Shown piece after piece: positions 37,655 through 41,750 of a stretch of DNA of 64,000 nt (its first letter is position 1; every line of letters begins with the position of its first letter). A model generated the notes under the pieces. That model ran no database searches. It worked only from the letters and a program-made list of their open reading frames with translations, and had not been told where the DNA came from. The stretch covers positions 1-64,000 of the forward strand of contig NZ_CYGX02000008.1 of NCBI RefSeq assembly GCF_900019265.1, read 5' to 3'. Source of the DNA: Paraburkholderia ribeironis (GTDB lineage: Bacteria > Pseudomonadota > Gammaproteobacteria > Burkholderiales > Burkholderiaceae). Position numbers and translations under genes: made by a program.

Positions 37655-38088
37655 GCGGCGCCGGACCTGAGGCGACGCTGCTGGCGTTCGACTACGGGGA
37701 AAAACGCATCGGCGTGGCGGTCGGCAATTCGCTGACCAGGCGTGCGCGGCCGCTCGTCATCGTGCCGAACCACAGCCGCGAATACCGGTTCGAGGCGGTC
37801 GGCAAGCTGATCGCCGAATGGAAGCCGGACGCGTTGGTGGTTGGCTTGCCGATGCACCCGGACGGCACGCCGCACGAAATGACGCAACTCGCGAAGCGCT
37901 TCGGCAATCAGCTGAACGGCCGCTTCAATCTGCCGGTGACGTGGGTCGACGAGCGCTATTCGTCGGTCGAAGCGAAGGCGGGTATCCGCGCCGGCCACGG
38001 CCGCGCCGACATGCTCGACGCCGAAGCCGCCAGCATCATCCTCCAGCAATATCTAGACGGACTTTCCGACGATCATGAGCTCCATTGA
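37651..38088 (+). CDS. ruvX: RuvX/YqgF putative pre-16S rRNA nuclease
   Basis: This 145-aa protein has the RNase-H-fold pattern [14 protein letters not shown] (about 13-26), [16 protein letters not shown] (about 63-78) and [10 protein letters not shown] (about 99-108). It was first named a Holliday-junction resolvase; in E. coli it trims the 5' end of 16S rRNA. It overlaps yqgE and pyrR by 4 and 14 bp, so the three are translationally coupled. Confidence 0.95.
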
Positions 38089-38626
38089 CGCCGAAGCGCT
38101 TTATCGCGCGTTGCTCGACCAGATTCGCGCGGCCTACGGCGACCGGCTCGGCGCCGCTCAGGAAGGTGCCGAAGGTGCGGAAAACGCGGTGCTGGCCGGC
38201 ATCCACAGTGGTGGCGCGTGGCTTGCCGAGCGGCTCGCGCACGATCTGCACCTGCCGAGCTTTGGCGTGGTGAACGTCGCGCTGCATCGCGACGACTACG
38301 CAAAAAAGGGCCTGCACGCGCAGGCGAGCCCGACCTCGCTGCCGTTTTCGGTCGACGGCCGCCGCATCGTGCTGGTCGACGACGTGCTGTACACCGGCCG
38401 CACGATTCGCGCGGCGCTCAACGAGCTGTACGACTATGGCCGGCCGGCCGCGGTCGAACTGGCGGTGCTCGCCGATCGCGGCGGCCGCGAGTTGCCGGTG
38501 GCGGCGCGTTTTGTCGGCGGCGTGGTGAACGTGCCCGCCGACGCGACGCTCGTGCTGGCGCGCGAAGAGGACGGCGCGGCAGGCCACCCGCGTTTTTCTT
38601 TTCACACCGAGGCACGCGTCGATTGA
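38075..38626 (+). CDS. pyrR: PyrR bifunctional protein / uracil phosphoribosyltransferase
   Basis: This 183-aa protein has the PRPP-binding signature [17 protein letters not shown] (about 93-109) and [13 protein letters not shown] near 44-56. It makes UMP from uracil and, in some bacteria, binds pyr mRNA; no attenuator was recognised downstream. In the ancestral order pyrB would follow directly, but the IscB element now separates them by about 1.85 kb. Confidence 0.93.
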
Positions 38627-38770
38627 ATGCACTTTGCGCGTTGCGCAACACCGTATCCGGCGCGCCGCGTTTCGCGCGAAGGGCCGGTGTAGCCCAAAAC
38701 CATCGCAAGCAGTCCGCGTCGACACCGATTCCGTTGAAGTCCGTATTTGAAGCAGGTACACCGTCAATCA

Positions 38771-38790
38771 CCCCGGCCTAAGGGCCGAGG
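38771..38790. repeat. left-end hairpin of the IscB element
   Basis: CCCCGGCC-TAAG-GGCCGAGG folds into a stem with one C-A mismatch. The right-end hairpin at 40438-40457 has the same stem pattern with only the loop changed, as expected for terminal hairpins of IS200/IS605-like elements. Confidence 0.85.
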
Positions 38791-39079
38791 CTTGTAGGGT
38801 AGCAATCTGCAAGTCTGGGGTTGACCAGACCAGCCGTCGCGGGACGCACCGTTGTGCAGGAGACAGCAGACCCACCGCCAGATGCTTCCTGAGTCTGGCG
38901 CTCTGGAAGTCGCAGCAGCAGACAAGCCCCGGGTAGGCACGAAACGGGCTGCGACCGGCAGGTTTTCTTGCCCCCTGCTGTACAACATGGTCGAGGGGAG
39001 CGGCGCCGCAAGGCGCCCGTCACCAGGCCCGTAAGGGCAACGCGCCGGACGTTTTCCGGTTGAACACCAGGAGCTGCAG
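38771..39079 (+). ncRNA. probable IscB omega-RNA
   Basis: About 300 nt directly upstream of iscB can form many hairpins: the left-end stem, GTCTGG-GGTTGA-CCAGAC (38813-38830), GGCGCC-GCAA-GGCGCC (39002-39017), GCCC-GTAA-GGGC (39027-39038) and CCGGA/TCCGG (39045-39059). IscB proteins are guided by an omega-RNA from this position whose guide is at the 5' end, so the guide should lie just left of the element, about 38750-38770. The scaffold runs up to the iscB ribosome site. Ends are inferred. Confidence 0.75.
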
Positions 39080-40477
39080 TTGGCGGTATTCGTTCTGGAC
39101 AGGTTGGGCAAGCCGTTGATGCCGTGCAGCGAGAAGCGTGCGAGGTTGTTGCTCGCGCGCCGGCGTGCGCGCGTTCATCGGCTCATGCCCTTCGCTATCC
39201 GACTCGTCGACCGCGAACTCCTCAGCAGTGCAGCGCAACCCCTGCGCATCAAGCTGGACCCGGGCAGCAAGGCCACGGGATTGGCGCTGGTCCGCGACAT
39301 TGAACAGGTCGACGCGTCGACGGGAGAAATCCATCGCGGCGCAGTGGTCCTTAACTTGTTCGAACTGGTCCATCGCGGCCGGCAAATCAGCGAGGCGCTC
39401 ACCGCGCGGCGCGCCATGCGTCGCCGTCGGCGCGGTGCCCTGCGCTACCGCGCACCGCGCTTTCTGAACCGTACCCGGCCTACACGATGGCTTGCGCCAT
39501 CTCTGCAACATCGAGTGGATACGACGCTCGCTTGGGTCAAGCGGCTCCAGCGTTGGGCCCCGATAACGGCGGCGAGCACTGAACTCGTGCGCTTTGACAT
39601 GCAGGTGCCCGACAATCCAGAAGTCACCGGCATCGAGTACCAGCAGGGAACCCTGTTCGGGTATGAGTTGCGTGAGTACCTTCTGGAGAAGTGGACGCGG
39701 AAGTGCTGCTACTGTGACGTGCAGAACGTGCCGCTCAACATCGAGCACCTGGTGTCACGTGCGCGCGGCGGCTCGAACCGGGTTTCGAACCTGGCAATTG
39801 CCTGCGTACCGTGCAACATCCGAAAGGCTGCGCAACCTCTGGACGTCTTCGTGAAGGACAAGGCGCGCCTCACGGCCCAGGTCCGGCGCCCGCTCAAGGA
39901 TGCCTCGGCCGTCAACGCCACTCGCTGGGCGCTGGTCAATGCCTTGCGCGCCACCGGCCTTCCGGTCGAAACCGCTTCCGGGGGGCGAACGAAATACAAC
40001 CGTAGCCAGCTCGGCATCCCGAAGACGCATGCGCTGGATGCAGTGTGCGTGGGTGAGGTTTCGGCCGTCGTTGCGTGGCGCAAGCCGACCCTGCGGGTGA
40101 AGTGCACTGGGCGCGGCAGCTATCAGCGCACACTACTGGACAGGTACGGTTTTCCGCGGGGCTATCTGATGCGCGCCAGGCGCGTGCGTGGGTTCGGAAC
40201 GGGAGACCATGTGCGGGCCGACGTGCCCTCGGGCAGAAAAGCAGGCACGCACCGTGGCCGTGTGGCCGTGCGCGCCACCGGCAGTTTCAACATTCAAACC
40301 CATGATCAGGTCGTACAGGGCGTTGCTCACCGCTATTGCCGGGTTTTGCAGCGCGCGGACGGCTACGGCTACTCAAGGATGGCAATTGACAAAGGAGAAG
40401 CGGGAGGAGGGGCTGCTACGCAGCCCGGGCCATCCCTCCCCGGCCTGAAGGCCGAGGTTTCCCGCGCAGAAGGATGA
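39080..40477 (+). CDS. iscB: IscB RNA-guided nuclease
   Basis: This 465-aa protein starts at TTG with CAGGAG six bases upstream. It has the PLMP motif (residues 12-15), RuvC-I LDPGSK (Asp60), an Arg-rich bridge helix (about 109-131), Ruv[13 protein letters not shown] (Glu168), an HNH domain with C209/C212/C242/C245 zinc cysteines and His223, and RuvC-III THALDAV (Asp320). All expected nuclease residues are present, so it should cut omega-RNA-matched DNA. Family similarity ends near residue 435; the tail reads through the right-end hairpin and its TGA overlaps the pyrB ATG (ATGA at 40474). Confidence 0.95.
40410..40426. repeat. internal hairpin near right end
   Basis: GGGCTGC-TAC-GCAGCCC is a perfect 7-bp stem inside the 3' end of iscB, 12 bp before the right-end hairpin. 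Such subterminal hairpins are common near IS605-type right ends. Confidence 0.6.
40438..40457. repeat. right-end hairpin of the IscB element
   Basis: CCCCGGCC-TGAA-GGCCGAGG matches the left-end hairpin, including the C-A mismatch, with a different loop. It lies 16 bp before the pyrB start. Confidence 0.85.
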
Positions 40478-41499
40478 ACACCGCCACCCAGGCCCCCACG
40501 GATTCCGCCGACAGCGCCACCGAGCGCTTCCGTTATGGCTTCCTGAAGGGCAACCCGCAGCTCACGAAAAACGGTGAGCTCAAACATCTGTTGTCGATCG
40601 AGGGCCTGCCGAAGGCGATCGTCAACCACATTCTCGACACCGCCGACCAGTTCGTCAGCGTGACCGATCGTGAAGTGAAGAAGGTGCCGCTGTTGCGCGG
40701 CAAGTCGGTGTTCAACCTGTTCTTCGAGAACTCGACGCGCACCCGCACCACCTTCGAAATCGCCGCGACGCGTCTGTCGGCGGACGTGCTGAATCTGAAC
40801 ATCAATGCGTCGTCGACCAGCAAGGGCGAATCGCTGCTCGACACGATCAACAACCTGTCGGCGATGCATGCCGACATGTTCGTCGTGCGCCATGCTTCGA
40901 GCGGCGCGCCGTACCTGATCGCCCAGCATTGCGCGCCGCACGTGCACGTGATCAATGCCGGCGACGGCCGTCACGCACACCCGACCCAGGGTCTGCTCGA
41001 CATGTACACGATCCGTCACTACAAGAAGGACTTCACGAAGCTGCGTGTGGCGATCGTCGGCGACATTCTGCATTCGCGGGTCGCGCGCTCCGACATTCAC
41101 GCGCTGACCACGCTCGGCGTGCCGGAAGTGCGCGCGGTCGGTCCGCGCACGCTGTTGCCGGGCGGCCTCGAGCAGATGGGCGTGCAGGTCTTTCACAACC
41201 TCGACGAAGGCCTGAAGGACGTCGACGTGATCATCATGCTGCGCTTGCAGAACGAGCGGATGAGCGGCGCGTTGTTGCCCTCGGCACAGGAGTATTTCAA
41301 GAGCTGGGGCCTGACGCCGGAGCGCCTCGCGCTCGCCGCGCCCGATGCAATCGTGATGCATCCCGGTCCGATGAATCGCGGCGTCGAAATCGATTCACAA
41401 GTGGCCGATGGTCCGCAATCGGTGATCCTGAATCAGGTGACTTTCGGTATCGCGGTGCGCATGGCGGTGATGGGTATCGTCGCGGGCAATAACGACTGA
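40474..41499 (+). CDS. pyrB: aspartate carbamoyltransferase catalytic subunit
   Basis: This 341-aa protein has [12 protein letters not shown] (carbamoyl-phosphate site, about 85-96), [12 protein letters not shown] (about 170-181) and LRLQNER (aspartate site, about 255-261). It makes carbamoyl aspartate in pyrimidine synthesis. The N-terminal extension of about 30 residues fits class A enzymes that pair with an inactive dihydroorotase, encoded next. Its ATG overlaps the iscB stop, and AAGG lies immediately before it, so initiation may depend on translation through iscB. Confidence 0.97.
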
Positions 41500-41660: not shown

Positions 41661-41750
41661 GCCGAACCAGGTTGAACCAGGTTGAACCAGGTTGAACCAG
41701 GTTGAACCAGGTTGAACCAGGCTGAACCAGGCTGAACCAAGCTGAAAAAA
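41661..41750. repeat. 10-bp tandem repeat GTTGAACCAG
   Basis: Nine adjacent 10-bp units lie directly before pyrC'. Five are perfect GTTGAACCAG (41671-41720), one upstream unit is GCCGAACCAG, and the last three vary (GCTGAACCAG, GCTGAACCAA, GCTGAAAAAA). Length changes would shift the pyrB-pyrC' spacer by one helical turn each. No CRISPR-like spacers are present. Confidence 0.95.

Follow-up and report, generated by a model that had tools for sequence, protein, structure and literature searches.

How does an RNA-guided nuclease element come to lie between two genes of pyrimidine synthesis, and what keeps it there? Why transposons carry RNA-guided nucleases is, to our knowledge, still unsettled, and laboratory plasmids have so far been the main system in which it has been studied. 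The case considered here lies in a stretch of 64,000 nucleotides of the Paraburkholderia ribeironis genome (hereafter the window), in which the genes stand in the order ruvX, pyrR, the element, pyrB and pyrC. An earlier note on this DNA had described a complete IscB/omega-RNA element between pyrR and pyrB, and profile searches bear this out for the nuclease (NCBIfam, 413 bits), for the RNA, which matches the HEARO family, and for the two pyr genes. The parts of the element are those of a known family. What the earlier note missed is that the element lies on a start codon, that its iscB stop is shared with the ATGA of the host gene, and that both traits are common among related elements.

Parts and ends of the element

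The features of the locus, all on the + strand, are the following.

38075..38626, +: pyrR, the host gene upstream (NCBIfam NF003545, 255.6 bits)
38743..38762, +: predicted guide, the host flank directly left of the element, abutting the HEARO match (the 16-nt version is 38747-38762)
38763..40473, +: whole IscB/HEARO element, 1711 bp, with ends set from empty pyrB sites in relatives
38763..39006, +: HEARO/omega RNA scaffold (RF02033, 82.5 bits, E 1.5e-16, model positions 1-211 of 211)
38774..38787, +: left terminal hairpin CGGCC-TAAG-GGCCG, read from the sequence
39002..39038, +: two hairpins with GNRA loops between the scaffold and iscB (GCAA at 39002-39017, GTAA at 39026-39038), read from the sequence
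39080..40477, +: iscB, 465 aa, with a TTG start after AGGAG (39069-39073) and a TGA stop taken from host bases
40382..40473, +: iscB codons of about 435-464, running through the right end, a predicted disordered tail (pLDDT 24-30 for residues 431-465)
40441..40454, +: right terminal hairpin CGGCC-TGAA-GGCCG, read from the sequence and covered by the right-end profile
40474..40477, +: ATGA, at once the presumed target-adjacent motif, the pyrB start codon and the iscB stop
40474..41499, +: pyrB, aspartate carbamoyltransferase, a complete host gene (NCBIfam NF002032, 411 bits)

The ends follow from relatives in which the site is empty. There the pyrB site reads ...GCAGGTACACC|ATGAACACC or ...TTTGAAGCAGGTACACC|ATGAACACCGCC, while in the filled site of the window GTCAATCACCCC comes after the left half and GCGCAGAAGG stands before the right half. 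This comparison places the element exactly before the pyrB start codon. Its last base directly precedes the ATG, on the start-codon side of the ribosome-binding-like region of pyrB. The ends given earlier (38765..40477) are thereby corrected to a point 2 bp further left and to one 4 bp further inside, and the last ATGA is assigned to pyrB. The TGA stop of iscB (40475-40477) is part of pyrB's own ATGA.

Comparison with the empty sites revealed no target duplication at insertion, and hairpins stand at both ends, as is usual for elements of the IS200/IS605 type; the two hairpins are the matching pair that the earlier note had described. A Y1 transposase of its own, which that type would also include, was not found within the element. 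The element is present as a single copy in its genome, where a search for Y1 transposases gave one weak match only (28.5 bits), at G000:C51:162183-162473 within a frame of 274 codons.

The earlier note had taken pyrR and pyrB to be normally adjacent, and they do adjoin in all three mapped genomes that have no insert between them (G356, G309 and G282). It had also held that a lack of empty pyrR-pyrB sites in relatives, or a broken iscB frame, would speak against its proposal; relatives do have empty sites, and iscB of the window and of four close copies reads without interruption to its stop at the host ATGA. Four terminator-like matches were seen on the + strand, three upstream of the element and a weak one across the iscB start (39073-39087), and there was none on that strand from 39087 to pyrB. 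A promoter scan of 38400-40700 found nothing. Between pyrB and pyrC, the sequence at 41665-41743 shows a tandem array in which a 10-bp unit resembling GGTTGAACCA is repeated about eight times.

The IscB profile matches over its full length (NCBIfam guided_IscB NF040563, 413.4 bits with a cut-off of 175, profile positions 1-314 of 314), and Pfam assigns RRXRR and HNH domains. The residues expected of a nuclease (D60, E168, H223 and D320) and the zinc cysteines (C209, C212, C242 and C245), read correctly in the earlier note, are all present and are invariant in a 17-row alignment; the protein is related to solved IscB structures, and its four catalytic positions align with those of one of them. 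The structure model of the protein is poor overall, with a mean pLDDT of 63.8. Across the four copies at pyrB, iscB is under purifying selection (dN/dS 0.16-0.22). The window IscB departs from its sisters at two places in the region 39755-39872 (codons 226 to 264/265): residue 226, three positions past the HNH His, is Ser where they have Pro, and three codons that follow residue 264 in the sisters, between HNH and RuvC-III, are missing. Because of these two changes, which the sisters do not have, the window copy may be weakened.

On the RNA side, the 82.5 bits of the window fall just below the Rfam gathering score for HEARO, which is 83; the match came from a more permissive run, and the run at the gathering score gave no HEARO match in the window. 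The gathering score was reached in 13 of 15 related loci searched (85.8-118.5 bits). The other two, L055 and L056, are both sister copies of the window element, and two further sister copies, L053 and L054, score 92. The HEARO match begins at the left end set by comparison or by motif in 12 of 13 loci, L201 being left out of this comparison. Folding of the scaffold RNA is only mildly better than that of shuffled sequences (z -1.6; 15 of 200 shuffles were as good). The abundance of GNRA hairpins described earlier comes down to the two readable ones in the feature list. Near another IscB locus a ZMP/ZTP riboswitch was seen (L058, 338-452, - strand).

Predicted guide, empty targets and sharing between species

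In IscB systems the guide sits on the 5' side of the scaffold and comes from the left flank. At this locus the predicted guide holds what is presumably the original Shine-Dalgarno-like region of pyrB, GAAGCAGG (38749-38756), and its 20 nt are identical in all four species that share the element. An exact match to the 16-nt flank followed by ATGA occurs in 22 of 144 genomes of the genus, and the 16 of these 22 matches that were inspected were all at pyrB. Within its own genome, allowing up to 3 mismatches, only the occupied site resembles guide plus ATGA, and its 2 mismatches fall in the motif. Work on IscB retention reportedly found that an element gains when the empty site is cut by its RNA-guided nuclease, and the earlier note had proposed that a guide from the flank would act in this way against pyr loci that lack the element. 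The exact targets in the 22 genomes agree with the first half of that proposal; the comparisons reach beyond retention, in that the filled allele has apparently crossed species.

The element was found at 92-100% DNA identity over its full length in 5 of the 144 genus genomes. In four of them it is at pyrB, the copies of the other three species being 92-95% identical to that of the window and inserted at the same base. The fifth genome has a 93%-identical copy at the start of a cobaltochelatase-like ATPase gene, and the iscB of that copy falls among the four from pyrB. The four species that share the pyrB insertion do not group together. In a tree of flanks away from the junction, made from 27 genomes (23 hand-picked near relatives and the 4 filled; one of the 27, G309, sits on a long branch and carries a different IscB element in the flank upstream), the four filled rows need 4 changes, and a common clade of the four was rejected (p-AU 6.8e-6). 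On the pyrB tree, the seven filled rows of all iscB lineages need seven changes. The 57 pyrB loci had been selected for similarity, for a match to the guide pattern or because they bear iscB, and the 7 of 57 that are filled are therefore not a frequency.

Synonymous divergence indicates that the element is younger than the genes around it. Among the four copies, dS is 0.097-0.224 for iscB, compared with 0.248-0.322 for pyrB, 0.287-0.476 for pyrR and 0.343-0.428 for pyrC. The iscB value is the lower one in 6 of 6 pairs against pyrR, pyrB, pyrC, yqgE and plsC, and in 5 of 6 against ruvX; in the remaining pair ruvX is less diverged than iscB, which counts against homing. A short upstream tract is shared as well. 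Over the last 150 nt before the element, in the same 27 genomes, the difference is 0.119 within the filled sites and 0.300 between filled and empty ones, and 2 of 3000 random quadruples were as extreme. The corresponding ratio rises to 0.78 at 150-300 nt and to 0.95 at 300-450 nt, so that the sharing becomes weaker and is then gone. On the pyrB side no shared tract was detected in seven windows (ratios 0.74-1.09). G376 fits the upstream tract least well, and even the upstream tree requires 2 changes for the four filled rows, which again counts against homing.

A different IscB element occupies the pyrR start codon in two genomes, G356 and G309 (L193 and L194), which are not sisters in the pyrB tree. 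Its IscB matches that of the window over the full length at about 61.6% identity, and the element lies within the last codons of ruvX. In this pair, dS is 0.056 for iscB and 0.288-0.464 for six neighbouring genes, and identity drops at both ends of the element, which indicates that little flank moved with it. At pyrB, one site is filled in unrelated hosts and empty counterparts match the predicted guide. In both cases the element is younger than its flanks, with a co-converted tract on one side at pyrB and almost none at pyrR. From these sequence comparisons, the filled pyrB allele appears to have moved between species. Empty alleles could instead have replaced filled ones by recombination, although this would leave the low divergence of iscB unexplained. 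A third site, at ybgC in two genomes (dS 0.049 for iscB and 0.129 for ybgC), is indecisive as a case of homing because the two genomes are close kin.

The pyr genes have been entered repeatedly. At least four iscB lineages have reached pyrB, namely that of the window and three other hits, and these other cases came from iscB searches that were blind to location. pyrR was reached once, in two species, and pyrC was hit in two genera. The insertions at these three adjacent genes look far from even.

Start codons as landing sites of related elements

The 2009 description of HEARO RNA is said to have noted a preference of the insertions for ATGA or GTGA. We investigated the genes that follow such sites, using a right-end profile trained on ends before ATGA and applied to the collected iscB loci. 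Among 122 loci scanned, 20 were without a right-end match and 7 were dropped as duplicates. In 35 of the 95 left, a left end or an ATGA was not located, and the resulting set of 60 contains the pyrB insertion of the window along with its three sisters at that gene. Right ends before ATGA were seen in 82 of the 95 loci, a figure that is biased upward because the profile was trained on ends found there. The test for a start codon is free of this bias, since it is conditional on ATGA. A frame of at least 100 codons, frames running off the end of the locus included, opens at the right-end ATGA in 51 of the 60 loci, compared with 573 of 1968 background ATGA sites in the same loci. With a stricter, start-like criterion the counts are 39 of 60 and 276 of 1968. 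A Shine-Dalgarno core is found in the flank left of the element in 19 of 50 loci, compared with 244 of 1843 in the background.

Host proteins of at least 100 codons numbered 69, and 20 of them were picked by hand for naming. Three gave no match; in 16 of the other 17, with L055 as the exception, the match to the family starts no later than residue 28. Among these hosts are dihydroorotase (twice), 3-isopropylmalate dehydrogenase and exodeoxyribonuclease III, and pyrroline-5-carboxylate reductase is the host in one Burkholderiaceae genome and in one of Bacillota. Annotated plasmids gave a similar picture: in 9 of 14 loci, by visual judgement, the right end abuts the start of an annotated CDS. 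For this, 14 of the 51 plasmid records with a match were picked by hand, and two records that have no annotation at that place were set aside. For comparison, 33 of 697 ATGA sites in two 50-kb background samples are annotated starts, and the same 33 make up part of only 124 ATGA sites at which an insertion would spare genes. At 33 of 124, avoidance of gene damage alone is not an easy explanation of the habit. Landing on a host start codon is common among the related iscB elements, and it looks like a rule.

Sharing of stop and start is frequent too. The stop and start codons overlap, in the manner of coupled genes, in 45 of 90 loci, the window included (19 at -2 and 26 at +1; 90 of 92 loci could be scored). 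In 41 of the 90, iscB stops 28-146 nt before the host start, which means that the overlap is not needed in general, and in 4 it runs past the host start. A predicted trade-off between a Shine-Dalgarno sequence at the right end and the stop/start overlap was not significant (3 of 39 versus 7 of 35, p 0.18); before the stops and two host positions were corrected, the counts had been 3 of 44 versus 7 of 32 (p 0.085).

Several single loci deserve mention in their own right. At L088 (5411-6889) and L018 (2014-3288) the iscB frame enters the host gene in register, so that an IscB-host fusion is possible; L018 is a broken copy. In plasmids of Deinococcus and Trichormus, IscB elements sit at the parB start codon, between parA and parB (L216, 3869-4771; L217, 3860-4846). 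In a Polaromonas plasmid (L204 and L218), each of three iscB genes shares one base with the gene after it, and two of the genes that follow carry the annotations PilN family protein and OmpW family protein.

Proposed homing at start codons and its alternatives

On the basis of these comparisons, we consider it probable that this complete IscB/HEARO element homes to gene start codons under RNA guidance. The host sequence on its left would become the guide of the omega RNA. The IscB complex would then cut an empty pyrB allele, using ATGA as the adjacent motif, and repair from the filled copy would insert the element. The filled site would be spared by having GTCA in place of the ATGA motif. Copies of 92-95% identity at one site in species that are not close kin make it likely that the element spread by cutting empty copies of the gene. 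In addition, pyrB may owe its translation to ribosomes that terminate on iscB and reinitiate at the overlapping ATGA, since the native ribosome-binding region of pyrB now lies about 1.7 kb upstream. If so, a break in the iscB frame would cost the host its pyrB, and the element would have a second hold on the host that does not depend on the nuclease.

The nuclease might be a bystander. The pyr flanks of Paraburkholderia are similar enough for ordinary homologous recombination to move a filled pyrB allele, which could persist because it does little harm, and the asymmetric upstream tract may be nothing other than a recombination tract. We regard such passive spread as unlikely, given that the same pattern was found with two different elements at two sites, that identity in the pyrR case falls sharply at both element ends with little flank moved, and that selection keeps the iscB sequence. 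One old insertion, inherited vertically and lost precisely many times, is very improbable. Although a transposase acting in trans could excise the element and restore the empty site exactly, many parallel losses would be required; iscB should then be as old as pyrB, yet its dS is lower in all six pairs; and the 23 aligned empty sites are mostly without the filled-type upstream flank, G315 sharing one feature of it.

That the element does move is evident from the 93%-identical copy at another gene start, and pyrB was reached by four iscB lineages independently. Were the shared insertion the product of fresh transposition, time and again into one ATGA, by a Y1 transposase acting in trans, no shared 150 nt upstream would be expected, yet the window lineage does have them between species. 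ATGA is common, so that four hits on the same one would be surprising, and the single Y1 match in its own genome is weak. We therefore judge this route improbable as the source of the shared insertion, while transposition by Y1 is likely to account for the first arrival at each new site. Purifying selection on iscB, together with its repeated presence at pyrR, pyrB and pyrC, might also suggest a nuclease that the host has turned into a regulator of the pyr operon. Such domestication is hardly credible for an element whose catalytic residues are retained, whose presence is patchy, and whose relatives sit at many unrelated gene starts.

Homing by the nuclease, which we prefer, has a familiar parallel. 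Homing introns and inteins with their homing endonucleases occupy fixed sites in conserved genes, are patchy, are younger than the host gene and bring a short co-converted flank with them. The window element shares the fixed site, the patchiness, the younger age and the short flank. It differs in that no splicing is involved, the host gene being kept by landing exactly before its start codon, and in that it is RNA-guided, so that each new site would bring its own new specificity. From the known IscB/HEARO (ISC, OMEGA) elements of the IS200/IS605 superfamily, which it resembles in protein family, RNA family, terminal hairpins and the absence of a transposase, it is set apart by its tie to a host start codon, by a stop taken from the host ATGA, and by its presence at one site across several species.

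In a preprint, TnpB is reported to drive elements through plasmid copies (PMC11870625). The principle described there, RNA-guided cutting of an empty site that favours the element, is alike; the preprint concerns tests of TnpB in laboratory plasmids, whereas the present case is natural, chromosomal and cross-species, and involves IscB. Overlaps of the ATGA or TGATG kind couple translation by termination and reinitiation, according to another article (PMC6728339). The overlap of stop and start is the same as in the gene pairs treated there; here it is made by a mobile element that lands on a start codon. A literature search over titles and the openings of abstracts, which was not exhaustive, brought up no paper that describes IscB targeting start codons, sharing its stop with a host start or homing across species.

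More broadly, and tentatively, IscB elements may be RNA-guided homing parasites of start codons. The ATGA would double as host start and iscB stop, and insertion would spare the host gene while tying it to the translation of iscB. A guide taken from the conserved ribosome-binding region would allow entry into the same housekeeping gene across species. Such elements would be a bacterial counterpart of homing introns, with pyrRBC of the Burkholderiaceae as a hot spot. The locus offers a natural, countable case: a single element occupies the same base in four scattered species, and 22 others hold an exact empty target. With it, the idea that an ancestor-like relative of Cas9 can home becomes open to test. 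By the start-codon rule, IscB ends, guides and motifs could be assigned automatically in annotation, and the rule offers a possible reason why such insertions are tolerated in central pathways.
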